Source: Acholoe squamosa (lineage: Eukaryota; Annelida; Polychaeta; Phyllodocida; Polynoidae). From it: a stretch of DNA of 64,000 nucleotides. How positions within the stretch are numbered: position 1 is the stretch's first letter; the number at the start of each line of letters is the position of its first letter. A program made the translations under genes and the position numbers. Under the pieces are notes generated by a model that made no database searches, had not been told where the DNA came from, and saw only the letters and a list, made by a program, of their open reading frames with translations. Below are positions 4,109 through 51,977 of the stretch, piece by piece. The DNA lies in the NCBI GenBank assembly GCA_949317995.1, contig OX439044.1:14326141-14390140 (forward strand). Direction: 5' to 3'.

Positions 4109-4163
4109 AAAAACTGTTGCATGAAGATCGGACATAATTGTGTGTCCCGGGGTTCTATTACCC

Positions 4164-4370: not shown

Positions 4371-4424
4371 TATGGACTTTTGAACTACAAACCGGATTTA
4401 CTACTACACCACTACTATTTGTGA

Positions 4425-4592
4425 GCTAGCACTACAGGCATCAGGGTTTAGCTACGCCCATAGAGTCCATCAACAGTCTACAACTGGATCTACTATAACC
4501 TCCAGTTAGCTAGCACTACAGGCATCAGGGTTTAGCTACACCCACCAACAAGTTTTACTATAGCACTTCAGGCATCAGGGTTCAGCTCGCCC
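4425..4592 (+). repeat. 3' UTR tandem repeat of G1a (three units)
   Basis: The motif CACTACAGGCATCAGGGTTT, or a close variant, occurs three times, each followed by AGCTACRCCCA-like sequence. Copy b has four occurrences. The last unit is diverged (CACTTCAGG, TTCAGCTCG). Confidence 0.85.
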
Positions 4593-5406: not shown

Positions 5407-5418
5407 TAAGGGGGGCAG
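5407..5418 (+). promoter_or_regulatory. polypurine tract (PPT) of G1a
   Basis: TAAGGGGGGCAG lies directly before the LTR start TGTAGGGG, the expected plus-strand primer position. It is conserved in copy b. Confidence 0.85.
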
Positions 5419-5613
5419 TGTAGGGGTATGGTATTTTACACTTTAACGTTCATGCACCCGTGAGACTCAGACCTAGGTCCTTCGGGTGTGGTGGGGGAAT
5501 CCGGATGGCAGGTGGCAGCACCTGCCTCTGGGTTCGTATCCACTACACCAGGGGGCCTACCACTCGTCCGCCACACGTCACGTGGCCGGTCTGAGTTTCG
5601 CGGGCTTTTCCCC

Positions 5614-5620
5614 TATATAA
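5614..5620 (+). promoter_or_regulatory. LTR TATA box
   Basis: TATATAA inside the LTR, about 135 bases before the AATAAA. Its position fits a Pol II core promoter at the U3/R boundary. Confidence 0.7.
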
Positions 5621-5676
5621 GGCTGGTCCTAGCCCTAGGTTCCTCAGTAGTGGTTTACCCACTGCTCAACCAGGTT

Positions 5677-5694
5677 GTTACCCGAAAGGGTAAC
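5677..5694 (+). other. LTR stem-loop with GAAA tetraloop
   Basis: GTTACCC-GAAA-GGGTAAC is a perfect 7-bp stem closed by a GNRA tetraloop, downstream of the TATA box and so inside the transcript. It is conserved in all three G1 LTRs. Its role is unknown; packaging or translation control would be guesses. Confidence 0.65.
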
Positions 5695-5754
5695 CGAATG
5701 CACTAGCAGCATGTAGTCCTCTGAGGCTGTGATCGTATGTAACGCAAGCTCTGA

Positions 5755-5760
5755 AATAAA
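5755..5760 (+). terminator. LTR poly(A) signal
   Basis: AATAAA in the LTR downstream of the TATA box; the likely 3' processing signal of the element transcript. Confidence 0.7.
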
Positions 5761-5836
5761 AGCTCGGTTGCCTACCCGGAAACTTTTCTCTCTCTTCGTT
5801 ATGATTTAATCTAACTTAACGAGACGAACCACTACA

Positions 5837-6164
5837 TAACATTTTGAATCAAAGACAGGGCAAGACTGACACTTAAAATATTGGATGCAGGTGCCTGATA
5901 TGATTGAAATAATATGCCTGTTCATGTGCCTTAAATGTAAATGGGATGAGAGTGTATCAGATTACAGCGTGAGAACAGATCCCAGCTAGCAAAGAGACCT
6001 TGGCCCAAAATCGGCAATGGTTGGCACCGTCGCGGGCAATATTCTGATGTTGGGGAGTCTGACGTCATACCAACGTTGGCAAATCAATGTTGTGCCAACG
6101 TCAATAATATGCCCAGAGATCTACTGACGTTGGTATAACATCAAATAATTGACATTGTATTATA
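5837..6164. other. no gene; region with repeated CCAACGTTGG-type motifs
   Basis: No coding potential. From about 6010 to 6160 the sequence is dotted with variants of CCAACGTTGG, GTTGGCA and GACGTTGG in both orientations, like a degraded palindromic repeat. I cannot assign a family. Confidence 0.4.
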
Positions 6165-10127: not shown

Positions 10128-10799
10128 TGTCAATGGACCATTCTGGGTATTATTATTATTATTCATATTTACTAAATTCTTCGCCATATAAAGCCTAAGC
10201 TCTGCCCATGATCCACACTCAATAATCTGTATTCCTCAATAGGAACCAGGATCCTTTAGTCATCACAAACACACTTCCTCTATTAGACTCTGTGACATAA
10301 GGTACAAGGATGTAATAACATTCCAACCTTATCTACTCAGTCCAACTGGAGGAAGTGGGATCCACCCATGGTGCCATATTTGGAATGAGAGGATATTTCA
10401 CAATCTCCTCTCAATCCTCATTAACATAATCTACCCACAGGTGGCACTCTCTCCTTATGACACATGTCACTATTCTATTGAGCCACATGTACAGAACATT
10501 TCACAACACTGTGAGCTGCTCAAGCCCTCAGTATATAAGGTAGCTTGAGCTGCTCCCAATCATCTATTCCAAGCTATCTATTCTAAGCTATCATCTCTCC
10601 CAACTTACACCTTACACCTATACCTAGAACCTACGACAGGTTGAGCTATAGGATCGGAGGCAGAGCTTAGATCTTGGCGAGTGTTATCATTGTTACCACC
10701 TTTATGAAACACTCATGTTAGCTATGCAATAAAAGGATCAACTGAACTTCCCTGGATTCCGTGTACATTCACTTCACCACATGTAACCGTCCGTTGACA
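10128..10799 (+). repeat. 5' LTR of element L (672 bp)
   Basis: TATATAA at 10532-10538 and AATAAA at 10728-10733 give a normal U3-R-U5 layout on the plus strand. It differs from the 3' LTR by three substitutions that I could find, all CA here against CG there, and lacks 3 bp near 10229. Confidence 0.92.
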
Positions 10800-10802
10800 C
10801 GA

Positions 10803-13096: not shown

Positions 13097-13114
13097 AACC
13101 TGTAGAGGTCGGCG

Positions 13115-13118
13115 GAAA
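13115..13118 (-). terminator. Pol III-type T4 terminator after tRNA-like sequence
   Basis: TTTT on the minus strand, eight bases beyond the tRNA 3' end, the usual distance for Pol III termination. Confidence 0.6.
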
Positions 13119-13126
13119 ACGTCTTT

Positions 13127-13197
13127 GGAGAAACCGGGACTCGAACCCGGGACCCTCCAACTTCGAAGCGGAAGCTCTTCCTCTGAGCTACTTCCCC
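13127..13197 (-). tRNA. tRNA-like gene inside LTR (Ala-like body, anticodon CGA by numbering)
   Basis: 71 nt folding as a class I tRNA: 7-bp acceptor stem (GGGGAAG with TTTCTCC, two G-U pairs), 4-bp D stem (GCTC/GAGC), anticodon arm TCCGC-TTCGAAG-TTGGA with one mismatch, 5-nt variable region, and perfect T arm CCGGG-TTCGAGT-CCCGG. The discriminator is A (13126). The A box (TAGCTCAGAGG) and B box (GGTTCGAGTCC) fit Pol III consensus. D-loop length and overall sequence look most like eukaryotic tRNA-Ala(CGC), but the loop gives CGA, which would read Ser codons on a non-Ser body. It may be decayed, or kept only for its primer-like 3' end. Confidence 0.75.
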
Positions 13198-13352
13198 AGA
13201 CCTGACGTTCTCTACCTTCCACCTACATCTGGATCGGTATGACACAAGGGGGCAGTGTTCACTGGCTGACCAGCCCCTGGGGGCTGGTGCAACCGGGGAA
13301 CGGGGACAGATAGCATACCGCCATGGACTCACAGCCAGAGCTGGCCCCTACA

Positions 13353-13364
13353 CTCCTCCCCACC
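13353..13364 (-). promoter_or_regulatory. polypurine tract of composite element
   Basis: On the minus strand GGTGGGGAGGAG directly precedes TGTAGGGG, as expected for the plus-strand primer of a minus-oriented element. Confidence 0.7.
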
Positions 13365-13499
13365 AGCTTCAGCCAACCCTACTCCTCCAACCCAACCTCC
13401 AGCAGGTGACTAGTTTACCCCTAGCAGGTTGAAGCGTTAACTGTGTCATACCAGTCCAGGTACCGAGTTCTCTAGTCCCCCCACGGGTCAGGACCAACT
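13365..13499 (-). other. short non-coding interior of TRIM-like core
   Basis: With the primer site and polypurine tract this makes a 162-bp interior, far too short for a protein, as in TRIM elements. No gene seen. Confidence 0.65.
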
Positions 13500-13513
13500 C
13501 GGTTTCTCCACCA
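13500..13513 (-). promoter_or_regulatory. primer-binding site matching the LTR-encoded tRNA
   Basis: On the minus strand the LTR end CTACA is followed by one base and then TGGTGGAGAAACCG. That is the exact complement of the embedded tRNA-like 3' end CGGTTTCTCCA plus CCA: 14 of 14 bases. The next base breaks the match. Confidence 0.85.
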
Positions 13514-13514
13514 G

Positions 13515-13570
13515 TGTAGAGGTCGGCGGAAAACGTCTTTGGAGAAACCGGGACTCGAACCCGGGACCCT
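13515..13570 (-). repeat. partial LTR (last 56 bp) at cargo junction
   Basis: Matches the plus-strand start of the 252-bp repeats from TGTAGAGG through the tRNA acceptor and T arm, then ends abruptly at GACCCT and joins G2 pol sequence. Only the 3' third of the tRNA remains. Confidence 0.9.
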
Positions 13571-16500
13571 GGTGCTTATATGTGCGGGAGTGAGCATATG
13601 GAGGCGAGTGGCCGCACTAGGGGAGAGTGTGGGACACGCCTTCCCCCAAGTCATCCGTGTCTGGAATTCCTGAGAGGACTCGGATTGAATCTTGGTGATT
13701 CGGGAGACTTTCACCAGTTTACCAGTAACCCCTCACCTTTGGGGGGGAGACGGTGGTATGTACCCATATCTGTGGAAGGCCGGGTAGGGGAATTCTTAGT
13801 GGATACTGGAGCCAGCCACTCCTGTGTGTCCAAAAGATTTTTCGACTCGGTGGCCGGCAGTCATGAGAACCTCAAAACGGGGGTAAATGCTTGCACGGCC
13901 GACGGAAGCAGTATGCGTACATTTGGTAGGACGTTTATGCCTATCCGTATAGGAGGCAAGGAATTTGTTCTTTCGCCGACTATAGCAGAGGTTAGTGATG
14001 ACGGGATCCTCGGACTGGATTTTGCAAGCTTATACGGGGCCGTCTTGGACCCGAGGGATGGTATGATGAGTATACGGAACCCGTATGGCTTGCATATCCA
14101 ATGCGTATTGAGACAAGTGTCTTCGGTTGCATCGGTGATACACACGGTGAAGATCCCACCGGGTACCACTTGCGATGTCCTTTGTGGCGGATCAAAGGAA
14201 TGAAACTGGAGTCTATGAACCCGACACGGTGTATTTGTCGAGCATCGGGTTGGACTCAGTGGATACATTAGTGGCTAATGCAGCTTGGACTGTATTACCC
14301 ATAACTAACCGAAGTGGTTCGGTGGTTTATTTGAAGCGAGGCGACAGCATAGGTAGGATGAGTTCGGTAGAACATGTCGCCGAGGCTAAATTCAATAAAC
14401 CACTAAACCCTGTTAGTAAGCATCCTATGGATGAAGAATTCCAAAAGCTGATTGATCAGTCAGATTTAAAGAATAAGGAGGATAAGGATTGCCTAGCGAG
14501 ACTCCTACAAAAGTACGAGAGTGCTTTTGGTAGGGAAGGAGGACCGGTGGGTAGATCCGATAAGGTGTTGCACACCATAGATGTGGGCAACGAGAAACCT
14601 TTTAAAATCCCGTATCGTAGACTTCCTCTCAAGAAGAAGTTAATTTGTGAAGAGCAAATACAAAAACAATTGGACCTAGGGGTCATCGTGCCTAGCTCGA
14701 GTCCCTGGTCCAGCCCTGTTTGTATGACTACTAAGAAAGACGGTACAATCCGCTTTTGTGTCGACTACCGGAAACTGAACGGTATAACAAAGAAGAACTC
14801 GTATCCTTTACCAAGGATAGACGAGACTTTAGATAGCTTGGGCGGGAATCAATGGTTCTGTACCTTGGATTTACAATCCGGGTATTGGCAGATACCGATG
14901 CACCCCAATGACAAGGAGAAAACAGCGTTCTCCAGTCATATGGGGTTATTCGAGTATAATGTCTTGCCCCCCGCTACATTCGAGGCCATGATGGAATCCT
15001 TATTGAGCGATCTTTTGTGGAAGAAATGCTTGGTCTACTTGGACGACGTGGTCGTGTTCGGCAAGTCGTTCAAGCAGTGCCTTGCGAATCTGCAATTGGT
15101 CCTCGACCGGATACTATCGAACGGTCTAAAACTCAAACCCAAGAAATGTAATTTGTTTAAGAAATCAATCACATACTTGGGAAGGATCATTACCCCTACC
15201 GGGGTAAGCGCGGATCCGAAAAAATTGGTAGCTATGGAAGAATGGGAGAGACCCACGAGTGCTAAGGAGGTGAGATCATTTTTAGGATTTTGTTCCTATT
15301 ACCGTGATTTCATACCAAATTACTCTCGTGTCAGCTTCCCCATGCAGTGCTTAGCTCACTGGACCCCGGGTAGGGCACGGGACCCATTCCCATGGACCAG
15401 CGAGCAAGAAGAATCTTTTAATAAAATAAAAGATTTGTTTAGGAATACACCCGTGTTGAAATATCCCACTCCCGAGGGACATTTCATCTTAGACACCGAT
15501 GCGAGCAATGACGCGATTGGGGCAGCTCTCTCTCAGGTCCAGGAGGGAGTCGAAGTCCCAATAGCATTCGCTAGCAACACGCTAAGCAAGACCCAGCGGA
15601 ATTATTGTACCACCAAACGAGAACTTCTCGCAGTGGTGGTGTATACGAAGAAGTACAAGCATTTCCTTTGGGGGAGTGACTTTACTTTAAGAGCAGACCA
15701 TTCGTCTCTTAGGTGGCTCCTTAACTTTAAGGACGCCGAGGGGATGATTGGAAGATGGTTAGCTCATCTATCCGAATTCGGATTAGAGCATAAGCAAATA
15801 GAGCACCGACCCGGTGCTAAACATATCAATGCGGATGCCTTGTCAAGACGACCTATCCGAAGGTGCCAAAATGCCACTTGTGAAGACTGCGGAGCCCACA
15901 ATGCTGTGGTAGCCGGGCTGGTATTTAATTATACCACCCCCCGTATCCCCTGGGAGGAGGCTGTATGCAGCTATCTCGATTGGTCCCCGGGGACCATCAA
16001 GAAGTTTCAACAGTCAGACCCCACCACTGCGCGCAAAATGGAATACCTACGGTCAGGTATTAAACCGGCAAGGCCGCTAGTATCCCTGGAGGATAGGGAA
16101 GCGAGACGATTGCTAGCCCAATGGACCGAGCTAGAGATCCGAGACGGCATACTATGTAGGTGGAAGACAACTCCCACCAACGGTAGGCTGTTGCAAATAG
16201 TGATACCCGCCCCGATGAGGAGGGATATCATGTATTATTGCCATGGTCACCAAACGAGTGGCCATTTCGGTAAGAAGAGGTCAATAGAGCGCCTACAAAG
16301 GCGTTACTACTGGCCCGGTATGAGAGGCGACCTGCTCCGGTGGATCGCCACTTGCCCAGATTGTTGTAAAAACAAGCCGGGACCCGGCCTGGGTAAGCAA
16401 CCCTTATCGCAGGAATTGTTTGGTGTCAGATTCGCTCGGGTAGCGATAGACATAATCAGCGGGATTAAGACGACGCCCCGAGACAATACTTGTATGATGG

Positions 16501-17591
16501 TCGTAACCGACTACTATACCAAGTACACTCGGGTGTTCCCCCTTCCTAACCACAAAGCCGCCACATGTGCGGAGGCATTTGTGAAAGGCTGGGTGCTGCA
16601 TTTGGGTGTTCCCCTTATGATGCACAGCGACCAAGGAAGGGAGTTCGAGTCAGAACTTTGGCAGGAAATGTGCCATTACCTAGCCATTTGTAAGACCCGG
16701 ACAAACCCATACCGACCACAGTCGGATGGGCAGGTAGAGCGCTTCAACAGAACCCTTATACAAGTGCTAAAGCCCCTGGTTAATACCCACCAGGACGACT
16801 GGGATGAACAGTGCGAGTTTGTAGTACATGCCTACAACAACACTGTCCATTCATCCACTAATTGCACCCCAAACATGCTAGTGTTCGGCGAGGACATCAT
16901 AATGCCCGCCGACTTAGTGTATGGAGTGGTTGGGATAGACCCGAAGGCGCCCTGCACTGTGTTGTTTGTGGAGTCGTTAAGGGATCGGTTCAAACAGGCA
17001 TACGAGGCCGTTCGGAAAGAACTGCTGAAGAGTGCGAAGTGGCAGAAGGTGGGCTATGACACCAATGCTAAACGAATTCGCTTTAATGTTGGGGACAAAG
17101 TACTAAGGTACTACGAGCCGCTAGATAAGCTGAAGCTCGTAACGCCTTGGGAAGGTCCGTTTAAAATTATTCGCGTCATCTCCGAGTCCACGGTGATGAT
17201 GGAGGACTGCCTAACTGGTAGGAAATGGAAGACGAATGTCGGAAAACTTCGGCCCTGGAAGGGGCGCGAAGAGGCGGAGAGGGAGTTCGGTTACAAACCA
17301 CCCACGTCTGTCCCTAGCGGACCAGGAGTGGTAGTACCAATGAAGCGCCCTAGAGGCCGGCCGAGAAAGGCGCCGGGAGACGAGGTTATGGTGAAAAAGA
17401 AGACGAAGGCCAGGAAACGACCTAACCGTAAGAAAAGGAAGAATGTCTCGCTGAGTGAAGGCATTACGTATGGGAAAGGTCCTGCAGTGGCTAAGCGGAA
17501 TCCAGAAAAGGCCGTACGTAAAGCCGGGAAAAATAAAAGGCTAACCGAAGGCGTTAGACGCAGTCCCCGGTTGAGGTCTGCCGTAACCTAA
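13571..17591 (+). pseudogene. pol: G2 pol (protease-RT-RNase H-integrase), gag-less cargo, defective
   Basis: Pol polyprotein of a second Ty3/gypsy family, clearly homologous to G1 pol. Order: protease (LVDTGASHS near 13800), RT (YLDD near 15040), RNase H (DTDAS near 15495, ADHSSLRWL near 15700), integrase zinc finger (HGHQTSGH, CPDCC at 16240-16360), D,D-E core (AIDIISG, HSDQGREF, VERFNR) and a GPF module near 17150. A Lys/Arg-rich tail follows with an AT-hook-like RGRPRK near 17355. Two lesions: a small indel near 14183 shifts the frame (13580-14203 and 14175-17591 are in different frames), and six codons (F-G-L-C-N-A) are missing from the conserved RT PFGLCNAP motif near 14969. Gag is absent; the cargo starts inside the pol N terminus. 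Confidence 0.9.
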
Positions 17592-18103
17592 CTCAGTACA
17601 CAACGAGCTGCTGCGTGTTGTCCGCCATAGGCGGATAACATACGTTCCATGGCTGGAGATGCCGAACGCGCCCTCCCCGGGTGGCTGTATCCCGTGAGTG
17701 GCGGTCGGATTAACCGGTACATTCGCTTTGAAGCGTTGTATACACCGCCAAGCTCCAGACGATAGCACTCGGGTAGTAGGCCGCGTCTCGCATGTCGAGT
17801 CGAATGTTAGTTTGGATCTAGTTCCCTAGGTGGCGCCGCTGGTGCGGCGGGAAAGCGCGGAACTAGGTCACCGGATAGCCACGGCGGGATCTCGCGAGAC
17901 GAGAGGTCTGACGTCATACTGGTCATAACTAGAGCAGACTCGTGGTGGTTAGACGCCACCCGTTTTCGCTCTGGTTAGTGTTGGCGGTTTACAGCCCCTA
18001 GCTGTCGAGTTAGCTCGGTCTAACAACACCCCTTTGTTGGACGAATCCTTCGGGAGGAGTCCAACACATTTGCCAATTTTTATTGGAAGTCGCCCTCAGT
18101 GCC
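17592..18103 (+). other. G2 pol-ORF3 intergenic region
   Basis: About 510 bases without a reading frame, in the same position as the G1 pol-ORF3 gap. Short inverted motifs near 18025-18065 (TGTTGGACGAATCC, GGAGTCCAACA) could form a hairpin just before ORF3. No splice site called. Confidence 0.5.
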
Positions 18104-19245
18104 ATGGCACAGGGGACGATTGACGCTGCGCGTCAAACCGCCAACGTTCAGTTGGAACTAGACGAGGACCCGGAGGTCCCGTCTCGGGTCGTAGAGTCTA
18201 TGGACTCTTCGACTGAGGAGGCCGCCCGGACGCTCTCGGCTATGGCCGAGGCCACCGACCGGGAGAGGATGCCACCTCCACCACCACGCCCGGACCGCTC
18301 GTCTGCAGCAGCGGCTTCGGGTAGCAATGTAGATGTCTTAGACATTCCGATGTATCCTCCGGGATTCAAGACTCGCATCGAACGTATGGCACACGTCGAT
18401 TGCGAGGCCGGTGTTGTATACACCTCCTGGGGGACCTACATCCCCATGCACGCCTCTATGTTCGGATGCGGACCATTGGCAGTGAAGCAAGGCGTACCGG
18501 ATGCCATACCAGACGACTTCAAGACTCTGGTTATGGACTCGTGTAGCGACGAGTTGGCTGAAAATATGCCAGTCTCCTGGCTCCGCAACTACCTGAAGTT
18601 AGCAGAGAAGATGGCGGTCAACGAGAGTTTGGCCCGAGCCGTGCTCATCTCTGAGGGCATCACCCGAAAGGCCTCGGAGTTGAGGGAGTCTGAATCCGAC
18701 ATGGACACAGACTCCACTGTTACGTTGTCGTCGGTGGAAACCGACCGGGTCAAACGGTTGACCCACAAACCTGCGCCGACGGGTCCTCTCACCGAGAGTG
18801 ACTTGGAGGCTGAAGACATCCGGATCGCCGTCGAGAGGTCCACAACCGAGACCGACCCAAGTGCCGACATTCCTGACGCACCTGGTGAGATCTCGGAAGA
18901 GGACATCTCGCGCCAGCAGGCTGCTGTCGAAGCTAAGCGAGCCGAGCTCGCCAAGCAGCAGAAGCAGCTCACCGCAGCTCGTCGGGCCCACCGCAAACAG
19001 CAGGCCCAAGCCAAATCCAAGGTCTCTTCCGACTCTGACTCCCCGGTCAGCGGTAGGAGGAGTCCTCGTTCGGAGGGCAGGAATCCACGAGAGTCGGATT
19101 CCAGCCCTGAGGTACCGGCGCAGCCAACCAAGGTTGTGCGCCGGAAGAAGAAAAATGGAGCGAAAGCGTCTCCGGCAGAGCCCACACCCCCCACCAAGCC
19201 GAGGGGTAAGGGCAAACCGAAGGCGCCCGCCTCCACCTCCACCAG
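18104..19245 (+). CDS. G2 ORF3, truncated by junction with LTR
   Basis: Starts at an ATG in strong context (GCCATGG) and runs about 380 codons before the composite junction; the frame then reads on by chance through the LTR to a stop at 19385-19387. It shares with G1 ORF3 the position after pol, a proline-rich N terminus, the block V-S-W-L-R-N-Y-L-K-L-A-E near residues 155-180 (G1: E-S-W-L-M-D-Y-H-Q-M-A-K), and a basic GKGK-type tract ending in STSTSV (G1: KGKGKRSG to STSTSV). The Glu/Gln/Lys-rich stretch near residues 265-305 is probably helical. The zinc-finger and C-terminal parts are missing. ORF3 is thus a family trait, not a G1 oddity. Confidence 0.75.
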
Positions 19246-19497
19246 TGTAGAGGTCGGCGGAAAACGTCTTTGGAGAAACCGGGACTCGAACCCGGGACCC
19301 TCCAACTTCGAAGCGGAAGCTCTTCCTCTGAGCTACTTCCCCAGACCTGACGTTCTCTACCTTCCACCTACATCTGGATCGGTATGACACAAGGGGGCAG
19401 TGTTCACTGGCTGACCAGCCCCTGGGGGCTGGTGCAACTGGGGAACGGGGACAGATAGCATACCGCCATGGACTCACAGCCAGAGCTGGCCCCTACA
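19246..19497 (-). repeat. 5' LTR of composite element (252 bp, tRNA-bearing)
   Basis: Full copy of the repeat at 13101-13352 with one C/T difference. Preceded on the plus strand by CTCCACCAG, the same nine bases found before the partial LTR at 13515. In this position they belong to ORF3 Ser/Thr codons, so this is the likely microhomology of the capture event. Confidence 0.92.
19272..19342 (-). tRNA. tRNA-like gene inside LTR (second copy)
   Basis: Identical to the copy at 13127-13197: same acceptor, D, anticodon and T arms, same A and B boxes and T4 tract. Conservation is expected from LTR duplication at integration and does not itself prove function. Confidence 0.75.
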
Positions 19498-19501
19498 AAC
19501 C

Positions 19502-29550: not shown

Positions 29551-29968
29551 TGTAGTGGTTCGTCTCGTTAAGTTAGATTAAATCATAACGAAGAGAGAGA
29601 AAAGTTTCCGGGTAGGCAACCGAGCTTTTATTTCATAGCTTGCGTTACATACGATCACAGCCTCAGAGGACTACATGCTGCTAGTGCATTCGGTTACCCT
29701 TTCGGGTAACAACCTGGTTGAGCAGTGGGTAAACCACTACTGAGGAACCTAGGGCTAGGACCAGCCTTATATAGGGGAAAAGCCCGCGAAACTCAGACCG
29801 GCCACGTGACGTGTGGCGGACGAGTGGTAGGCCCCCTGGTGTAGTGGATACGAACCCAGAGGCAGGTGCTGCCACCTGCCATCCGGATTCCCCCACCACA
29901 CCCGAAGGACCTAGGTCTGAGTCTCACGGGTGCATGAACGTTAAAGTGTAAAATACCATACCCCTACA
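29551..29968 (-). repeat. 3' LTR of G1b
   Basis: 418 bp; same sequence as 42611-43028. Contains the minus-strand TATA box, AATAAA and GNRA hairpin described for G1a. Confidence 0.96.
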
Positions 29969-29980
29969 CTGCCCCCCTTA
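29969..29980 (-). promoter_or_regulatory. polypurine tract of G1b
   Basis: TAAGGGGGGCAG on the minus strand, abutting the LTR start TGTAGGGG. Confidence 0.85.
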
Positions 29981-30790
29981 GACAATAACTTGGGGGTAAT
30001 TAAACCGCAGTGTATTAATAACCTAGTAAGTGATTGTTTACAATACTAAAAAGGGGTATCAATTACACTTGCTCGATGTGAAATAGGCTATAGTATAAGA
30101 CTATCCTATTTCTGAAAAATTATACAATAATAGCATCGAGTGTCGTTCATGTTATTTCCATCACTAGCTTATAACAACCATAAATGATAAATATACAATT
30201 ATCACAGATTTATAGTAACGTTTTGACAACAGTAGGGTCCTGAAAAGGACCGGTGGTTGTTAACAATGATCGTATTATGGTTATTGAACCCGGAAAAAAA
30301 TTTTCGACTTTTTAAATTAACAGCTCTGTCTACTTTACAGAGTGAATTAAATACTAATGATCAGATATGGACAATTAATCTGATACTATATGAACACAAT
30401 TAGGTATTAACCTGAGTAATACAATAATAAGTTTAGAGAAATCCGTTGGACCTTCTCTTATTTTATAGAAAAATATTTATACTTTTGAGACGCAGCTCAG
30501 TTTATACCTTAGTGTTTTATATTTACAAGTTACAGAAGAATTATAGTCTCTTAATATATTGAGACCAGGAATGACCTATATAGACAGTTATAGGTCTAGG
30601 ATTACCTTAAATAACTTTTAGGATTCGCAGATCCAGTATATTTATAGGTACCCTTATATAATAATATATCTTTATAAAAGATATTATATAGTTATAAATA
30701 CAATTTTACATACAATATAATAATATCAACAAAGTTACTTGTTTTCATGATTGGAGGATGTAACAGGAGTCGGATGCTGCTGATGGCTTG
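29981..30790 (-). other. AT-rich 3' UTR of G1b
   Basis: Colinear with 4593-5406 of copy a, with a few substitutions. No gene. Confidence 0.7.
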
Positions 30791-30797
30791 GTATGGG

Positions 30798-31046
30798 CGA
30801 GCTGAACCCTGATGCCTGAAGTGCTATAGTAAAACTTGTTGGTGGGTGTAGCTAAACCCTGATGCCTGTAGTGCTAGCTAACTGGAGGTTATAGTAGATC
30901 CAGTTGTAGACTGTTGATGGACTCTATGGGCGTAGCTAAACCCTGATGCCTGTAGTGCTAGCTAACTGGAGGTAATAGTAGATCCAGTTGTAGACTGTTG
31001 ATGGACTCTATGGGCGTAGCTAAACCCTGATGCCTGTAGTGCTAGC
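30798..31046 (-). repeat. 3' UTR tandem repeat of G1b (four units)
   Basis: AAACCCTGATGCCTGTAGTG, or a close variant, occurs four times. The last two are 84 bp apart with almost identical spacers (TGTAGACTGTTGATGGACTC), a clean extra duplication absent from copy a. Confidence 0.88.
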
Positions 31047-31100
31047 TCACAAATAGTAGTGGTGTAGTAGTAAATCCGGTTTGTAGTTCAAAAGTCCATA

Positions 31101-31307
31101 TTAGTGTAAATTGTCCATGATTTTATAATAGGCACAGTCATTACATTGTGGCACAGTACAATTATGGTGTTTACAGCATTCGTACTCCTCCTCCAGAGTG
31201 ACTTGTTTGTTTTCTCCTTCTGTTTTCAGTTTCCGGATTAGGGTACAGTTTGGTACCCGAATCAATACGGGTTGGATAAAAAAACGGTTTCTTATCCAAC
31301 AATGCAT
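31101..31307 (-). CDS. small Cys-rich ORF downstream of ORF3 (copy b), uncertain
   Basis: Counterpart of 4164-4370, starting at the same ATG, with one amino-acid change. Probably untranslated 3' sequence unless independent copies from diverged relatives also keep the frame. Confidence 0.2.
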   Translation of the reverse strand: MHCWIRNRFFIQPVLIRVPNCTLIRKLKTEGENKQVTLEEEYECCKHHNCTVPQCNDCAYYKIMDNLH

Positions 31308-31361
31308 GGGTAATAGAACCCCGGGACACACAATTATGTCCGATCTTCATGCAACAGTTTT

Positions 31362-34300
31362 TTACTGTTCCATGTTCTCCTCGGGTGGCTGGTTTGGACC
31401 CGGTTGTTGAGCCAGTGGCTGAACAGGGGGGTTCACACCAGTTCCATCCGTAGGTGCCAATGCGGGGACAGCAGGTGTAAGTTTCACCTTTTGGCGTGCT
31501 TCGAACAGCTTCAAAGCATGCTCAGGTGTACCGTCCCAGTTATCCATGATAACTCCGAAGACCTTGAAGAACTTTTGCTGGTTCTTCATGTTCGTTGCTC
31601 GTTCTAGGTCGAGCATCTGAGAAGCTGTTTCCTTCTCGGATAGGGCCTCCTGCCGCAGATTAGCAGCTTCCTGCTTATCTTTGGCAACATCCGCTTTGAT
31701 CTGAGTCGAGATTCGGTTGATCTCTGACTTCTGGATCGCGTCAATACACTGGAGAGTGCTCGACACGGTCCGACGATACATGTCCAGGTGGAGGTTTTCC
31801 AGATGGTGCTGTAGCGTCTCAAATTGTTTGCTCTGGATATTGCAAGACAATTTGTCCTCCTTCTTGAAGAAGGTCTCCACTGTCTGGATCAGCTTAGGCC
31901 GATGAACCACAGCACCAGGTGGGGGTACCTGACCCTGAGGCTTCGGCTGTGCTCCAGACCCACTCGCAGTGACAGCTACCTGCGTGTGCGAAGAAGCAAC
32001 CGCAGTAGTAACCGCACTAGCAGTGGTCGAAGAAGGGCCTTGAGTTGGTAATCCCTGAACCAGGGGCAACCGTGACAATTCCCTTCTAAGGTCTTTGGCC
32101 GTCAACAATGGTGCGGGTGGACGTTGTCTCACCACAGCACTCATTGTAGGTCGGGGAGCTTGACCTCCTACTGTCGGCAGTTCCTGCTTGACCCTCCCGT
32201 ACTGATCAAAGATTTGCATCTCTGGTCCGGGTGGGCCCATAGCAGGGTACTGCTTCGGGTCTTTGACATTCAAAGGCGCGTGTTTCCGGGCGGACTGGCC
32301 ACTCGGTCCACTGACACCAAAGAATGTCGGGTTCTGTGCACCTCGTGGAGTTGGTGCTCGCCCATAATGGGAAGGAGTTCCAGTAGGAGATGGAAGATGT
32401 GGCTTCTTCCTTCCCCCATTTGTCTGTCTCTCCAGCGCCTCCAGTGGTGACCTGGCTCGGCTTGGAGATTCAGACGCCTGTCTCTTCCTATCTGCTGCAG
32501 AGGGTCCCTGGCGGTAATCCCTGCGGCTTCGGACCTGTTCTCCGGATGGAGTTACATAAGCCCCACCACGACGGCGGGCCTTGTTGCTTCTCCATTCGTT
32601 CAACAGATCGTACTCCTCCTGAGCGTACTCTAGTTTGCCGGACCCGGGAGTCTGGGCAAACCGAGCCTTTAGTTTCTGGTTAGTACCAGGAACCGTAGGC
32701 GCAAACTGCTTCGTACTCGGTGTGAGGGAAGCCAACTTCTCTGCATTGAGGCCCCTAAGGTTGCCATAGAGTTCGGAGTGAATTTTCATCACCCGATCTA
32801 TGGCTGCCTCCAGGCCCTCTCCATGCGAAGTCACATAGTGCCGGACCATGTCTCCGCGTCGGGGGGTGACACATCCTGTGCATTTAGCACATTTCTTGCC
32901 AACCTCTCGGTCGCAGACATATTCCGGCCTCTGGTGCATATGAACCTCCACGAGATGACGAAGGAACGCGTCTTTCTCGATGAAGAATTCAACCTCACCC
33001 TCACTTTGAGTACAACGTTGGAAGGGACAATCCTTACGATCCTCCCCGTAGTACTCATCTAGAGCAAACTTGAGCTTGCCCTTCTGGTCATAATTGTACA
33101 GACCATTGGGCGAATTCTTAACGAATTCCCAATAGATCCAGTACATATTGGCCGGCTTTCTATCAGAGAGCTTCTTGCGAAGCCACTCCTCCATATCTTC
33201 CTGCCCCTCACAGGTGATCCGAGGGGGCAGTCTCCATACGGATTTACTCCCCTTCAGGTGTCCCCTGTGTAGAGGAATGAAGTCGGCAAAGTTGCTATTG
33301 GCGTTAGCCCAGATAGCAGCCTCTTGCTCGTCAGTCGGAGTGACATCCACAACTGGGTCAACCGGCTCCTCTCCCTCTGGGTCGGATGGTACATCCACAG
33401 GTTGCACAACGGGTTGTTGACCCGCGAGGACCTGGGCTGCAGCATCTTGAGCGTCTCCACTCAAATCGGCCATTACGTCGTGTAGCTTGACGATTGGCAC
33501 ACCGAGCTCAACTTTTACGGTTGGGACAGCCGGTTCAGCTTCTGTATTATCAGCTTGAACGTCTACCTCGATAGGTTCAGGTTTGCGTTGGTCAACCTTC
33601 TTCTTATTCCTCCTGCGGGATCTGCCGTTAGTAGAAGTGCCAGGCTCGGATGCGTCCGTCTCATTGCCGGAGACATCCGAAGCCTTAGCGCCCTTCTTAT
33701 TGGCCGAGCGTGGAGACACCCGACGGGTTCGGGTACTGTCGTCCACACTCGTGCTGGTAGAGGGTTCGGTTCCTGACCGCTTCCCTTTACCCTTACCTTT
33801 GGTGGGGGTTGTTTTACCCTTTCCACCAGCTGCTTTCTCCTTTACTTGCTCAGTCTTCGTAGGGGTAGACTGAGCAGTTTTAAGGGAAACATCTGCATCA
33901 GGTAGGGCCTTCTCAGGTACTACTGCTGCGCCTCCCAAGGTAGGAGCTTCAGCAGGAGACATGAGACGGTCCATCCGATCGGCCATCTTGGCTGTTACTT
34001 GCACGGGTGCGGGTCCGGGTACTAACTCCGGATGCGCCAGTGCATACTGTCTCTCCAATAGACGTACTACGAGGTCTTGTATTACCCCGAGTCTGTCTAG
34101 TGGAGACACACCAATACGGGCCTCTTCTGCCTCAATGGTTTGAGACGTAATAGGGACCCCTGGACAGTAATCCACAACAGCGTTACCTGCTGCTTCATAC
34201 TCATCCGCTGTGCTTAACAGTAGGATCTGGTCTCTGTCTATGTATCTAGAGACCTCATCTGCCTTGACACCGGTGTAACCCGTTTTGTCAGACACATAGG

Positions 34301-35039
34301 AAGGCCTATAAGAGGTATTCCTTCGGAAAGCCATTTCTGCGTCCCAGACGGCTTTACGAAACCATAAGTGGACTACCAATCCTTTGGCCATCTGATGGTA
34401 ATCCATCAACCAGGACTCCGGAAAGGTATTAGCCCACTGCGGATGAGCACATTCCCAGATTGCGTTGACAACACGCTCGTCAACCTCTCTGGGCGTCCCA
34501 TAACAGGTGGGTATCAGCATTTCCTCGGAAATTGCTAACATCCGTCCGTCATATGGACCGGCTACATCATGCCATTCGGGACTGTCTGGGAAGGGCAGCT
34601 CTAGGTGCATTGGCCTGTCAACCGGAGAAGCAGGTCCCAAAGCACCGAATGAGGTACTCCCACCAAGACGGGGCGGCAGTTGAGGGGGAGGTGGCATCAG
34701 AGCCCTGTCAAGAGACTGGGCTCCTGCCGGTTCTCCACTCAAACCTTCGGATGGAGGGGCTACATAAGGCTCACCTACATCAATTTGTTGTTGAACGCCT
34801 CGGCGTTCAGGACTAACTTGTCTGGAGTTGTCGGATGCGTCGTAGAACGATTCTACGTCGCTATCGTCTACTCCAGAGAAGTACTGATCAACATTCATTT
34901 GTTGATCCATTTGATCACAATCAGCATCGTATTGCTGATCGTCGTATGTATAAGTGGGACTCTTGGGAGAACCACTTCCATACTCTGGCGGGGTGCTGGC
35001 ACCGGCACCGCCGCCAAGACGGACGGCCTCTTCTGCCAT
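31362..35039 (-). CDS. G1 ORF3: large zinc-finger/coiled-coil protein in env position (copy b)
   Basis: Intact frame of about 1,225 residues from ATG 35039, with the same architecture as copy a: acidic/proline-rich N terminus, W-rich block shared with G2, basic tract, two irregular C2H2-like fingers in the middle, C-terminal coiled coil. The four differences from copy a (Arg/Gly, Phe/Val, Val/Ala, Met/Val) lie outside the Cys/His ligands. It follows pol by about 550 bases and is in its own frame, so it needs its own mRNA or a reinitiation event. Candidate roles for a soluble, basic, finger-bearing accessory protein are genome binding, targeting or silencing suppression; these are guesses. Confidence 0.87.
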   Translation of the reverse strand: MAEEAVRLGGGAGASTPPEYGSGSPKSPTYTYDDQQYDADCDQMDQQMNVDQYFSGVDDSDVESFYDASDNSRQVSPERRGVQQQIDVGEPYVAPPSEGLSGEPAGAQSLDRALMPPPPQLPPRLGGSTSFGALGPASPVDRPMHLELPFPDSPEWHDVAGPYDGRMLAISEEMLIPTCYGTPREVDERVVNAIWECAHPQWANTFPESWLMDYHQMAKGLVVHLWFRKAVWDAEMAFRRNTSYRPSYVSDKTGYTGVKADEVSRYIDRDQILLLSTADEYEAAGNAVVDYCPGVPITSQTIEAEEARIGVSPLDRLGVIQDLVVRLLERQYALAHPELVPGPAPVQVTAKMADRMDRLMSPAEAPTLGGAAVVPEKALPDADVSLKTAQSTPTKTEQVKEKAAGGKGKTTPTKGKGKGKRSGTEPSTSTSVDDSTRTRRVSPRSANKKGAKASDVSGNETDASEPGTSTNGRSRRRNKKKVDQRKPEPIEVDVQADNTEAEPAVPTVKVELGVPIVKLHDVMADLSGDAQDAAAQVLAGQQPVVQPVDVPSDPEGEEPVDPVVDVTPTDEQEAAIWANANSNFADFIPLHRGHLKGSKSVWRLPPRITCEGQEDMEEWLRKKLSDRKPANMYWIYWEFVKNSPNGLYNYDQKGKLKFALDEYYGEDRKDCPFQRCTQSEGEVEFFIEKDAFLRHLVEVHMHQRPEYVCDREVGKKCAKCTGCVTPRRGDMVRHYVTSHGEGLEAAIDRVMKIHSELYGNLRGLNAEKLASLTPSTKQFAPTVPGTNQKLKARFAQTPGSGKLEYAQEEYDLLNEWRSNKARRRGGAYVTPSGEQVRSRRDYRQGPSAADRKRQASESPSRARSPLEALERQTNGGRKKPHLPSPTGTPSHYGRAPTPRGAQNPTFFGVSGPSGQSARKHAPLNVKDPKQYPAMGPPGPEMQIFDQYGRVKQELPTVGGQAPRPTMSAVVRQRPPAPLLTAKDLRRELSRLPLVQGLPTQGPSSTTASAVTTAVASSHTQVAVTASGSGAQPKPQGQVPPPGAVVHRPKLIQTVETFFKKEDKLSCNIQSKQFETLQHHLENLHLDMYRRTVSSTLQCIDAIQKSEINRISTQIKADVAKDKQEAANLRQEALSEKETASQMLDLERATNMKNQQKFFKVFGVIMDNWDGTPEHALKLFEARQKVKLTPAVPALAPTDGTGVNPPVQPLAQQPGPNQPPEENMEQ

Positions 35040-35593
35040 CGACAGAAGTGGCTGTTCGGGGATAAAATATCCCAATCCACCGGATAAGCAGTGAGTACTG
35101 CTTACCCAGTGAAAGGCGGGTGCCTTTTAACGAGGGCACACCTCGGAATATGGCTGTCACGGGCTATCAGACTCCAACAAGAGCAAGACCACCCTCGGCC
35201 ACGTCTTCTTCCTTCGCAGGAATAAGACAATATGGCGGGATACTCGAACTTGAATCGCTGCGCATGATCAAACCGGCGCCTCACGTGACCATTCGAAAAT
35301 GGGTCAACAACTTTCCCGCGTGCCCTTAATTAGGTCACGCGCCCTTACATAAAAACAATACAATACCCGATCGGTCGTCCGTCCGTACTCAGGGTTCGAC
35401 TATGACAATTCGCTAGGTATTCTGGAGTTTATGGATAGCATAAGCATATCCACCGGATTATCCGTCCAAAACCATGGGTTCATTGTCATAGGACCTTTTC
35501 CAGAGACTCTTGACCGGCTCAAATATACATTGAACTAGGTTACAACATATAACAGTACACAGTACAGGACAACACACTCGTTGTGTTAACAGG
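35040..35593 (-). other. pol-ORF3 intergenic leader of G1b
   Basis: No coding region. The proximal 430 bases match 1-430 of copy a. Position suits a subgenomic promoter or splice acceptor; none called. Confidence 0.6.
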
Positions 35594-38500
35594 CTAGGTT
35601 ACGGCAGTCTGTAGCAACCTTGGACTGCGTCTAAGAGGTTTTGAGGCCTCTTTTATTGACCTGGTATCCATAAGAGCCTTTTCCAAGGTCTTCTTAGCCT
35701 TAGAAGGACCTTTCCTCTTATTTTTACCTGCGCCTGCCGAGACTTTTTGTATCTTCCCCTGCTTTCCGGATGTTACGACAGGGGGCACCACCCTCTTCGG
35801 GTCTGCAACCTTCCGTGGCCGCCCGGGTCCTCGCTTTCGGGTCGGTACCACTTCGAGTTGCTTAACACGACTCTGTTCCATTACTTCCAATAGACCATCG
35901 CCGTACATTTCGGTGGAGGTATCCCTCCCCCTCCATGGGCGTAGTCTCGCTACATTTGACTTGTAACATTTACCAAGCTGTGATTTAATAATCACTGTGC
36001 AATCACTAATAACCTGAGTTATAGTGAAAGGTCCATCCCAATTACTGGCTAATTTCAGGTTAGCTAGAGGTTGGTGTAGACGCAGTACTCTATCCCCTAG
36101 ATTAAAAAATCTAGCTTTTAGACCTGTGTCATAGCCAACTTTCTGCCAACGCGCAGTTTTCTGCAACTCGTCTCTAACCCTCTCATAGGCTTGTTTGAAA
36201 TTATCCCGTAGGGATTCTACAAACATCACCTGTCAAGGGGCTTCCGGATTCATTCTTATTACGCCGAACACCAAATCGGCTGGCATAATCAAATCCTCTC
36301 CAAAAACGAGGAGATTAGGAGAACAGTTTGTGCTCGAATGCACAGTGCCATTATAGGCATGTACCACGAATTCACATTGTTCATCCCAATCATCCATCTG
36401 CTCATTTACCAGAGACTTCAATACTTGGATCAAAGTCCTATTGAATCTCTCTACTTGTCCATCGCTCTGTGGTCTATAGGGATTAGTTCTTGTCTTGCAG
36501 ATCGCCAGACAATTACACATCTCCTGCCACAGACTAGACTCAAATTCTCTGCCTTGGTCACTATGTAACATGAGTGGGACACCTAGGTGCAGCACCCACC
36601 CTTTTACAAAGGCCATAGCACAAGTAACAGCCTTATGATCCGGTAAAGGAAACACTCGGGTGTACTTGGTATAATAATCAGACACGACCATCATACACGT
36701 GTTGCCACTAGGAGTGGGGGGAATCCCACTAATAATGTCAACAGCTATTCTAGCAAACCTTACACCAAACAGTTCCTGGGATAATGGCAGCTTGCCTAAC
36801 CCGGGTCCTGGTTTGTTCTTACAGCACTCGGGACAGGTCTCCACCCATCGGGTGAGATCTGTACTCATGCCGGGCCAATAGTATCGTCTGGTCAGACGTT
36901 CTAGAGACCGTTTCTTTCCAAAGTGCCCACTAGTTCTATGTCCATGACAGAAATACATAATATCTCGTCGCATAGCACTAGGTATGACAACTTGCAAGGT
37001 TTTGTTCCTATTAGAATGGTTCTTCCATCGAAACAGAATACCATCCCGGACTTTTAGCTCGGCCCATTGAGCTAAGAATCGTCTCATCTCTCTGTTCTCC
37101 AATGACACTACGGGTCTTGGGGGACAGATACCCTGATTAAGGAATTTAATCAAACGTGATGTGACTGCATCAGACTTCTGGAACTGCCTGATGGTCTCCA
37201 AGGACCAATTCAAGACATGTTCCGGATGGGTTTCGAATGGAACTCGAACCCCTGCCAACACAGCATTGTGTGCTCCACAATCAGTGCACTCAGCATTTGC
37301 ACATTTCCTCACTGGGATTCTAGACAAAGCATCTGCATTCAAATGCTTTGCCCCGGCTCGGTGTTCAATCTGGCTGTGATTTAGACCGAATTCGGATAGG
37401 TGCGCTAACCAGCGACCTATCATCCCCTCTGCATCTTTGAAGTTCAATAGCCATCTGAGGGAAGAGTGATCAGTCCGTAGAGTGAAGTCACTCCCCCACA
37501 AAAAGTGCTTGAACTTCTTCGTATAGACCACCACAGCCAACAACTCACGTTTAGTGGTACAATAGTTTCTTTGAGATTTACTCAACGTGTTACTAGCGAA
37601 GGCTATAGGAACTTCGACCCCATCCTGGACCTGAGAAAGGGCGGCTCCTATGCTTTCATTACTAGCATCAGTATCTAGAATGAAATGATCATTCTCCGTG
37701 GGGTATCTCAACACAGGTGTGATAGCAAACAAATCCTTTATTTTCATAAAGGCCTCGTCTTGCTCGGGTCCCCAAGGGAATCGTTCCTTTCTGATCCCGG
37801 GTGTCCAGTGGGACAAACTCTGGATAGGAAAGGCAACCCTTGAATATCCTGGGATAAAGTCCCGGTAGTAGGAACAGAATCCGAGGAAGGACCTAACTTC
37901 TTTCGCATTCGTGGGTGCTTGCCAATTTGACACGGCATCCAGTTTCTCCGGATCGGCTTTAATCCCTTCATTCGAGATTATTCGCCCCAAGTAATTAATA
38001 GATCTTTTGAAAAGATCGCACTTCTTGGGTTTCAGCTTCAAACCATTAGTTATGATCCTTTCCAGGACCATACCTAAATTTTCCAAGCATTCTTCGTATG
38101 TCTTTCCAAAGACAATCACATCGTCTAGATAGACGAGACATTTCTTCCATAAAAGGTCACTTAATAAAGTTTCCATCATGGCTTCAAATGTCGCCGGTGC
38201 ATTGCACAATCCAAACGGCATCACATTATACTGGAATAATCCAATATGACTGGAAAAGGCCGTCTTCTCCATATCTTTCGGATGCATACCCACTTGCCAG
38301 TACCCGGATTGTAAGTCTAGAGAGCAATACCATTGCTTACCTCCAAGGGAGTCTATAGTCTCATCGATCCGTGGTAAGGGATATGAATTCTTCTTGGTCA
38401 TACCATTCAATTTCCGGTAATCTATGCAGAAACGGATGCTACCATCTTTCTTGGTCACCATGCACACAGGGCTAGACCAAGGACTGGTTGATGGAATTAT

Positions 38501-39853
38501 TACATCCTGTTCAAGCATTTTAGCTATCTCCTCCTCAGCTACCCTTTTTTTGGCTAGTGGGAGTCTTCTATAAGGAATCTTAAAAGGTTCATTCTCACCA
38601 GTGTCAATCGTATGCAGTACTTTATCGGTACGCCCCAATTGTTCACTCGGTGCTGCAAAAGCTTTACGGTACTTGTACAACAAGTCAGTTAGAGCTTCAC
38701 GTTGTTCATCACTTTCTACATGGCTTTCGGCTACTAGAGTGTCTAGTTCCGGGCTCCTTTCGGGTGGGATAGGGGCTCCGGGTGCCGAAACATGTTTACA
38801 GTCTTCTATCAATTCGGATAAGACAACCGATCCAAGGATCGTATCCTTCTGTACATAGACAGTCTTGTTACCGGTATTGGATATAGGAACCACCGTCCAA
38901 GCAGCGTTAGCTACTAGAACATCAGCGGATTCCAATCCGATACTTGACAACATGGCCATGTCTGGCTCTACAACTCCAGTTTTTCCTGAAAACTGTCTGT
39001 CCGCTCGACATAAGACATCACAGGCTGTGCCTGGTGGTATCTTAACAGTCTGGGCTACACTGGCTACACTGCTTACTTGCCTAAGTACACATTGTACTTC
39101 GAGATGGTACGGGTCTCTCACTTCCAATATTCCCCTCTGGGAATCTAACCTTGCTCCATATAATGCAGCAAAATCCAGACCGAGTATACCATCATCCGCG
39201 ATGTTCGCCACAGTAGGGGTAAGGATGAAGTCCTTATCTTCCTGTAGACTGAACCTCATACATGTTCTACCGAACGTTTGTATCATGCTACCGTCGGCCG
39301 TACGAGCATTTCCTTCCGTTGTGAAAGTTTCATGATTCGTAGGCAAAAGATCGTAGAATCTCTTGGCAATACAGGAGTGGCTAGCACCCGTATCGACAAG
39401 AAACTCAGCGGATCTACCACTCACAGATACAACTGCGTACCACCTCCTACCTTTCAAGTAGGTAGGACTACTTGCATACTTAGCAAGTTCCGTCTTAGCG
39501 CCGAGGTCAAATCCACATCCCTTTAAGAATTCGAGACAAGGATGACCCGGGGGGAACTGGGCACACCCCACCCTGGCCAACTCATTGGCCGCTCCCTCTG
39601 GACTGATATCGGGTTTCCCCTCTGTGTTCTTCTGCCGGTTCTTGACACCTGGTGTACTATCAGTCTCCCCAGCCTCATGAGTAAGGAACTGATCAGGCTC
39701 CTTAGCTTCACTGCTGGGCGAAATCGCTAGAGGATTCTTGCCAGTACCGCAAGCTGCGATAGGCTGGCAGTCATGGCAATCACTCACTCTGGGGGTAATC
39801 CGGTTGCCATTGTGGACACCCCCTCTCAGTTTTCCTTCTTCACTGAGTCCTCC
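35594..39853 (-). CDS. pol: G1 pol (protease-RT-RNase H-integrase) with one in-frame TGA
   Basis: Same-frame translation of about 1,420 codons interrupted once by TGA (36235-36233). Residues from the GTG at 39787: protease FLVDTGASHS near 130, RT DLQSGYWQ near 487 and YLDD near 553, RNase H DTDASN near 705 and TDHSSLRWL near 775, integrase HGHRTSGH/CPECC near 950-985, D,D-E at about 1016, 1078 and 1112 (AVDIISG, HSDQGREF, VERFNR), then a GPF module and a basic tail with an AT-hook-like GPGRPRK. The TGA falls where G2 has TGC, between the integrase core and the GPF module. The frame is open from 39853, overlapping the gag end by 28 nt in the -1 frame, so pol is probably made as a Gag-Pol fusion. 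Confidence 0.93.
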
Positions 39854-42567: not shown

Positions 42568-42596
42568 TTCTGACTGCGCTTACCCGAAGACCAACT

Positions 42597-42609
42597 GGTC
42601 ACGGCACCA
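42597..42609 (-). promoter_or_regulatory. primer-binding site of G1, tRNA-His type
   Basis: On the minus strand, one base after the LTR, TGGTGCCGTGACC. The first 12 bases complement the 3' end of animal tRNA-His (GTCACGGCACCA), as known for tRNA-His-primed retroelements. Confidence 0.8.
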
Positions 42610-42610
42610 G

Positions 42611-43024
42611 TGTAGTGGTTCGTCTCGTTAAGTTAGATTAAATCATAACGAAGAGAGAGAAAAGTTTCCGGGTAGGCAACCGAGCTTTTATTTCATAGCT
42701 TGCGTTACATACGATCACAGCCTCAGAGGACTACATGCTGCTAGTGCATTCGGTTACCCTTTCGGGTAACAACCTGGTTGAGCAGTGGGTAAACCACTAC
42801 TGAGGAACCTAGGGCTAGGACCAGCCTTATATAGGGGAAAAGCCCGCGAAACTCAGACCGGCCACGTGACGTGTGGCGGACGAGTGGTAGGCCCCCTGGT
42901 GTAGTGGATACGAACCCAGAGGCAGGTGCTGCCACCTGCCATCCGGATTCCCCCACCACACCCGAAGGACCTAGGTCTGAGTCTCACGGGTGCATGAACG
43001 TTAAAGTGTAAAATACCATACCCC

Positions 43025-43028
<4 letters not shown>
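42611..43028 (-). repeat. 5' LTR of G1b
   Basis: 418 bp; no difference seen from the 3' LTR. TATA box and AATAAA on the minus strand drive and end the element transcript. Confidence 0.96.
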
Positions 43029-51785: not shown

Positions 51786-51809
51786 GATATTGTACTTAGG
51801 CAGGGTCCT

Positions 51810-51879: not shown

Positions 51880-51977
<98 letters not shown>

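Follow-up and report, generated by a model that had tools for sequence, protein, structure and literature searches.

The general view is that retroviruses and LTR retroelements take their primer tRNAs from the host. The locus described here raises the question whether a small LTR element can instead carry the gene for its own primer. It lies in a 64,000-nt stretch of genomic DNA from the polychaete Acholoe squamosa (hereafter the window), where the LTR of a TRIM holds a tRNA unit and the primer-binding site (PBS) matches that same tRNA. The observation is real, as the initial annotation of the window had it; we describe the element, compare its PBS with its own and with host tRNAs, and weigh the readings that could account for the match.

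The element and its neighbourhood

Two 252-bp repeats at 13101-13352 and 19246-19497, with one mismatch between them, enclose 5.9 kb, and the 4-bp AACC is duplicated outside 13101-19497. Since the PBS, the polypurine tract and the tRNA are all on the minus strand, the TRIM reads on that strand, in the order LTR, C, PBS, internal region, polypurine tract, LTR. Its features and those of its gypsy neighbours are as follows.

13097..13100, no strand: target-site duplication AACC, left copy
13101..13352, minus: TRIM LTR, 252 bp, TGTAGGGG...CTCTACA on this strand; the 3′ LTR in element sense
13116..13119, minus: TTTT, possible Pol III terminator
13126..13197, minus: Ala-derived tRNA unit with A and B boxes, G3:U70 and a CGA anticodon (loop TTCGAAG) on a mispaired stem
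13353..13364, minus: polypurine tract adjoining the LTR, GGTGGGGAGGAG, with one T (by eye)
13353..13514, minus: TRIM internal region, 162 bp
13500..13513, minus: PBS TGGTGGAGAAACCG, 14-nt complement of the LTR tRNA plus CCA
13515..13570, minus: LTR remnant, the last 56 bp of a TRIM LTR
13520..14203, plus: open frame with aspartic protease; the coding frame shifts before RT
13571..19236, plus: Ty3/gypsy fragment in antisense to the TRIM, with pro, pol and an N-terminal portion of ORF3
14151..17591, plus: RT-RNase H-integrase frame, lacking a short RT segment that relatives conserve
18092..19236, plus: gypsy ORF3 fragment
19237..19245, minus: CTGGTGGAG, a truncated PBS (its first 8 nt) next to the full 5′ LTR
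19246..19497, minus: TRIM LTR; the 5′ LTR in element sense
19271..19342, minus: tRNA unit in the second LTR
19498..19501, no strand: target-site duplication AACC, right copy
29551..43028, minus: resident Ty3/gypsy, a homologue of the insert with gag, pro-pol and ORF3, PBS TGGTGCCGTGAC and TRIM-like LTR ends

The window copy is a chimera of a TRIM and an antisense Ty3/gypsy fragment, and owes its span of 6,397 bp to the latter. The PBS had been described as standing next to a 252-bp repeat; the repeat holds, whereas 13500-13513 abuts only the 56-bp LTR remnant. The full 5′ LTR is 19246-19497, and there the PBS is reduced to TGGTGGAG, after which foreign sequence begins. The remnant together with 13506-13514 is a duplicate of 19237-19301. 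A plus-strand element with pol as its own gene was rejected on the minus-strand placement of PBS, polypurine tract and tRNA, and ownership of pol by the TRIM was rejected on the existence of two-LTR copies of 666–671 bp that have no gypsy sequence.

These copies come from a search of the genome (1.48 Gb, 63 contigs) with a 470-base query, which gave 2,764 first-look candidates. Among the 40 that were scored, 44 of 91 matches, the window's own included, span at least 463 query bases at 98–100% identity; two-LTR copies elsewhere consist of an LTR of 252 bp, an internal region of 162 bp or slightly more and a second LTR of 252 bp. Exact 4-bp target-site duplications flank 22 of 24 two-LTR copies (28 loci, L061-L088, with L062 and L086 dropped, and L064 and L065 lacking full ends). 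At the same 28 loci the LTR-PBS junctions all read CTGGTGGAGAAACCGAG except for L066 (CTGGTGGAGAAACAGAG) and the rearranged L086. The sampled copies retain the tRNA, as the annotation would have it, and copies without it did not turn up in the sample. Some loci (L064, L065, L071-L073, L075, L085) are tandem LTR-internal-LTR-internal-LTR arrays of 1,086–1,388 bp; L071-L073, L075 and L085 each have one exact 4-bp duplication around the whole array (in two cases TATA and ATAT).

Both tRNA units of the window score 50.1 bits with the Rfam tRNA model on the minus strand, with A box TAGCTCAGAGG and B box GGTTCGAGTCC. The unit lies in element sense with its 3′ end 25 nt short of the LTR end, and a TTTT begins 7 nt beyond that 3′ end (13119-13116), so that the reported tRNA unit with both boxes and a T4 run, a possible terminator, in each repeat is borne out. 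So is the reported absence of TATA and AATAAA: a scan of the LTR sense strand for TATAAA, TATATA, AATAAA and ATTAAA found none. The lone TTTT in LTR plus internal region was considered as a sign of selection and proved uninformative (1 observed against a shuffle mean of 0.59).

The body is Ala-like, as first proposed, in its acceptor stem with G3:U70 and its D arm, yet the anticodon is CGA, and ARAGORN calls both units Ser(CGA). The anticodon stem is mispaired, the predicted fold is not a cloverleaf (z −1.07), and the window family does not show the stable cloverleaf with matching isotype and anticodon of a functional host tRNA gene; its tRNA may not be processed. The tRNA is the only Rfam match of the LTR over the cut-off, with no 5S rRNA-derived sequence. 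A weak tRNA-like match (32.9 bits) at 29360-29420 on the plus strand, beside a gypsy LTR, is perhaps a SINE head.

The gypsy insert, which the initial annotation leaves out, spans 5,666 bp (5.67 kb) on the plus strand between the 56-bp remnant and the full 5′ LTR and contains protease, RT, RNase H, integrase and the start of ORF3. Its coding sequence is broken, with protease and RT in different frames and a conserved RT stretch absent. It aligns with the resident gypsy at 29551-43028 in four pieces of 68.6–78% identity (the longest 2,465 positions at 68.6%). A pol-before-gag order was considered and rejected; the resident element reads gag-pol-ORF3, hence the 3′ frame is ORF3. The ORF3 fragment has no Pfam match, and one protein search gave no homologue with E ≤ 0.001. 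Thirteen pol relatives (12 on ENA contigs, 1 on a JGI contig), aligned among 120 listed of 535 found, are 52–79% identical. At the junction, the gypsy frame STSTSV coincides by eye with the TRIM sequence CTCCACCAGTGT, which makes a microhomology join likely.

A second locus (L124, G000:C12:39519100-39525500) has antisense gypsy gag/pro-like sequence, recognised by eye in translated frames, directly 3′ of the PBS at two LTRs. This pattern suggests that plus-strand strong-stop DNA is repeatedly mis-primed on gypsy RNA, and the window copy and L124 would both fit such mis-priming from the PBS end on co-packaged gypsy RNA.

Other features share the window. The large gypsy, with an LTR of about 418 bp, is present in two copies, 1-5838 (truncated by the window edge) and 29551-43028, the latter with an ORF3 of 1,254 aa after pol. 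At 10128-10800 and 22453-23128 a direct repeat of 676 bp (99%) brackets the whole TRIM region, and the two could possibly be LTRs of an older element that received the TRIM insertion. A 4.5-kb tandem duplication at 51105-59798 has RT-like frames with long poly-Asn runs and is DIRS-like by eye. A C2H2 zinc-finger frame of 571 aa at 25979-27694 on the minus strand, with related stretches near 46425-47057, is likely a host gene or gene fragment.

The primer-binding site, its own tRNA and host Ala genes

Read on the minus strand (13513-13500), the PBS TGGTGGAGAAACCG is complementary to the 3′ end of the LTR tRNA plus CCA at 14 of 14 positions, the complementarity that the initial annotation had claimed, and nucleotide 15 is mismatched. 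In the window family the tRNA end ...GGTTTCTCCA pairs with PBS TGGTGGAGAAACC. The arrangement exceeds chance, recurring in tens of other genomic copies.

A second family came to light through tRNA score alone, independently of any PBS, in a covariance-model search (97,417 first-look candidates, 63 scored) that yielded mainly this sister TRIM family. Its LTR is 251 bp, and its two LTRs are 458 bp apart and, in L093, 99.2% alike. The LTR tRNA is a tRNA-Ala(TGC) of up to 68.8 bits, which keeps the Ala anticodon; one base of the anticodon stem is mispaired by eye, so that it too falls short of the cloverleaf of a functional host gene. The tRNA end ...GGTGTCTCCA pairs with PBS TGGTGGAGACACC: CCCGGTGTCTCCA against TGGTGGAGACACCG is again 14 of 14, one base having changed in step. 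Nucleotides 6 and 67 differ between the families (T:G versus A:T), and despite this the acceptor stem is paired at 7 of 7 positions in both.

Covariation between tRNA and PBS was tabulated for 87 loci (L061-L147), in which a sequence pattern marks 158 distinct tRNA 3′ ends; 79 of these lead into an LTR end followed by TGG. Among the 79 junctions 70 agree, half with a TTTC tRNA and a GAAAC PBS (35) and half with TGTC and GACAC (35). Two disagree, one TGTC/GAAAC (L106) and one TGTTTCC/GAAAC (L071, a tandem array), and the PBS is point-changed in two others and absent in five. The Fisher value is 1.7e-19, a figure not to be taken literally with copies that are kin; because copies within a family are so closely related, the independent evidence amounts to some two to four PBS states. 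In L141 and L145 the LTR end is window-family-like and the tRNA is TGTC, and there the PBS follows the tRNA. Complementarity at the 79 sites extends over 14 nt at 59, 12–13 at nine, 16 at one, 18 at one and at most 10 at nine. The covariation expected of a PBS that tracks its own LTR tRNA holds across two families, and the refuting outcome named in the annotation, primer sites that fail to covary and fit an ordinary host tRNA better, did not arise in the sample.

Beyond the main type, a further 1,322 tRNA ends carry GTTTCTCCA. Twenty were fetched from 100 listed of the 1,322, and nine have an LTR end with TGG; eight of these match over 12–14 nt and one (L177) over only 7 nt. Further LTR-tRNA families, at G000:C1:123686664 and similar pairs 442–449 or 733–743 bp apart, carry other anticodon loops such as CTGCAGG. 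Apparently several TRIM subfamilies coexist in one genome.

Host genes were compared for one isotype, Ala. An Ala anticodon-arm pattern has 247 sites; 100 were listed and 20 of these fetched, of which 14 are ordinary Ala genes; the remaining six resemble tRNA-like repeats, one of them with an odd GGC call and five with no tRNA call at all. The 3′ ends of the ordinary genes read GGGTTCTCCA (six AGC), GGCATCTCCA (five TGC and two CGC) or GGCGTCTCCA (one CGC). For L156 and L158-L160, where ARAGORN had added end bases, match scores were recounted by eye. The best host match to the window PBS is an Ala-AGC gene and to the sister PBS the odd CGC gene, each 13 of 14 with a run of 10; best-match runs are 9–10.

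Each PBS thus fits its own tRNA (14 of 14) better than any of the 14 ordinary host Ala genes (at most 13 of 14), by a margin of one base of 14 per family. The A at position 11 of the PBS can pair with nucleotide 66 (T) in each LTR tRNA but in no host gene of the 14, and position 10 varies between the families in step with nucleotide 67 of their own tRNAs. The last acceptor bases are thus unlike those of the ordinary host Ala tRNAs and the PBS has changed to match, which agrees with the earlier remark on a departure from the Ala consensus. Elsewhere in the genome, at G000:C12:51450880-51469375, Ala(AGC) tRNA genes or tRNA-like units stand densely in tandem, often spaced by about 290 or 390 bp (one unit read, L152).

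What primes the element

In the reading we prefer, the LTR tRNA would be transcribed, trimmed and given a CCA tail, and would then serve as primer when the element is reverse-transcribed. Pol III would read the LTR unit into short transcripts ending at the nearby TTTT; these would be trimmed 5′ and 3′ and receive CCA, as pre-tRNAs do. The resulting tRNA would anneal to the PBS of TRIM RNA inside Ty3/gypsy helper particles and there prime minus-strand DNA. Retroviral progeny acquire their PBS as a copy of the primer tRNA; here each cycle would likewise recopy the PBS from its primer, whereby PBS and LTR tRNA would stay matched while drifting away from host Ala. Transcription, processing, priming and the nature of the helper are all inferred from the DNA. 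We hold the chances of this priming to be about even, because the margin is one base per family and the independent changes are few. The PBS of the resident gypsy TGGTGCCGTGAC, which we take to fit tRNA-His, means that such a helper may not package an Ala-like tRNA, and the PBS/tRNA match usually ends at 14 nt rather than 18.

An unlikely reading, though one of some weight, is that a host Ala tRNA primes, by imperfect pairing or from an unsampled matching gene, and that the LTR tRNA, of Ala-tRNA or SINE descent, acts only as a Pol III promoter, its likeness to the PBS reflecting shared origin. Both LTR tRNAs are indeed Ala-derived, host Ala-AGC matches the window PBS at 13 of 14 positions, and Kojima assigns host tRNA primers to the Helenus families discussed in that paper (PMC10886601). 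A PBS copied from such a primer would, however, bear the host base at position 11, which is seen in neither family: the base present occurs in 0 of 14 ordinary Ala genes (20 fetched, 100 listed of 247), and at position 10 each family has the base that suits its own tRNA. With the element's base where host priming predicts the host's, priming by the LTR tRNA is the simplest account.

A further reading, which we consider improbable, is that the partner of the PBS is not a free tRNA but the tRNA segment of its own strand, about 25 nt upstream, the pairing serving self-priming, masking or template switching. It draws on 59 sites at which an LTR end precedes a PBS whose complementarity to the tRNA extends as far as nucleotide 16. 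Forty were fetched, and 34 have a recognisable tRNA end just upstream; at 22 of the 34 the match to that tRNA is at least 16 nt, at 12 it is at most 13 nt, and T-loop bases 59-60 agree at 20.

Fifteen sites, picked for matches of at least 19 nt, were extended. At eight (L228, L231-L234, L236, L241, L242) the PBS gives way, by eye, to the reverse complement of an LTR, which begins exactly at that LTR's tRNA 3′ end and passes the tRNA 5′ end; in the other seven the leader resumes, other sequence is entered or the sequence is scrambled. We had considered the 16–23-nt matches as proof of tRNA priming and dropped them, since these eight run into an inverted LTR. They can be read as foldback synthesis, in which a strand ending in the PBS paired with an LTR copy of the tRNA and was extended, the structure expected if a PBS 3′ end folds back. 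They support real PBS-tRNA pairing during DNA synthesis, as distinct from priming by a free tRNA, and point to pairing of the two in cis as well, which lends indirect support to that part of the initial proposal.

As an account of priming, the same-strand reading meets several difficulties. The 59 sites are few against 2,764 first-look candidates, and 12 of 34 match the adjacent tRNA poorly; in L241 the inverted part differs by eye from the adjacent LTR, so that another copy or later recombination must be involved. At the tRNA the genomic RNA runs on and so offers no free 3′ end. The PBS, moreover, starts with TGG, the complement of a CCA that the LTR does not encode. Finally, that a TRIM with an Ala-type primer just happens to carry an Ala-type tRNA is very improbable: with about 20 isotypes only, a match in a single family would by simple reasoning not be rare, but the match is seen again in the second family, where another base covaries.

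Relation to known elements

TRIMs with a tRNA in the LTR are already known as Helenus (TRIMp3; Kojima 2024, PMC10886601), from a screen of elements under 1000 bp, and Helenus is mentioned in a 2026 meeting report; TRIM PBSs are treated in PMC6934838 and PMC4558846. By its anatomy the window TRIM is of the Helenus kind. It shares with Helenus as described there the TRIM size, tRNA-derived A- and B-box sequence in the LTR, PBS and polypurine tract, a Gypsy-like leader, the 4-bp target-site duplications of animal Helenus and, in the window family, a disagreement between anticodon and isotype (PMC10886601). Here tRNA-derived sequence is found in both LTRs, the 666–671 bp copies are short, non-coding and bounded by two LTRs, a PBS and a polypurine tract (by eye) stand at the ends of the internal region, and 22 of 24 duplications are exact.

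The difference lies in the PBS. Section 3.6 of Kojima 2024 compares the LTR tRNA-like sequence with the corresponding PBS and finds no complementarity, a property that does not define Helenus, whereas here 14 nt are complementary in most junctions and covary; in one copy (L101/L102) complementarity extends to 18 nt before the usual leader resumes. Ala is absent as primer isotype from that section's list for hymenopteran, vertebrate and bivalve Helenus, and Pol III transcription of Helenus was not validated in the paper (PMC10886601). The annotation had suggested that a TRIM with its cognate primer tRNA may be a novelty. Given Helenus, an LTR with a tRNA is not one; within the literature searched, the new part is the self-matching PBS only, which runs counter to the negative of Kojima 2024 (PMC10886601). 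The literature search, with most subscription journals and preprints outside its coverage, gave no other report of an element with an LTR tRNA or its own primer tRNA. A search of viral contigs gave five nearly identical stretches in which the surroundings of the site bear no similarity to a TRIM, two contigs that each have one Ala tRNA of a different kind, and 58 sites, at none of which the upstream 14-mers recur downstream within the stretch examined; it gave no gypsy relatives.

Cassandra and Ajax resemble the window TRIM as small non-autonomous LTR elements whose LTRs hold a Pol III gene unit, though theirs is 5S rRNA (PMC10886601), and a 5S unit could not act as a tRNA-type primer. The gypsy at 29551-43028 has in common with the TRIM the LTR ends TGTAGGGG...CTACA, the one-base spacer, the TGG start of the PBS and the leader AGTTGGTC; it differs in coding for gag, pol and ORF3 and in an LTR with no tRNA match over the cut-off. 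Self-priming LTR elements of the Tf1 type are named in PMC6934838. They are alike in that the element's sequence itself supplies the primer function. The Tf1 primer is the 5′ end of its own RNA and not an encoded tRNA.

Tentatively, and with a little less confidence than in the priming itself, we propose a class of LTR retrotransposons that encode their own RT primer. The LTR unit would be at once promoter, primer gene and part of the template; the PBS would be rewritten each cycle from the element's own tRNA, lock and key co-evolving independently of host tRNA genes, with proteins supplied by Ty3/gypsy helpers. The self-matching PBS bears on a stated negative in the only research paper found on this element type (PMC10886601). 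An own primer gene would account for the retention of a full acceptor stem by a parasite whose transcription needs only the A and B boxes. An element with such a gene in its LTR would also let the choice and packaging of the primer and the renewal of the PBS be followed in nature from sequence and would, if the reading is true, escape dependence on the host's primer tRNA.
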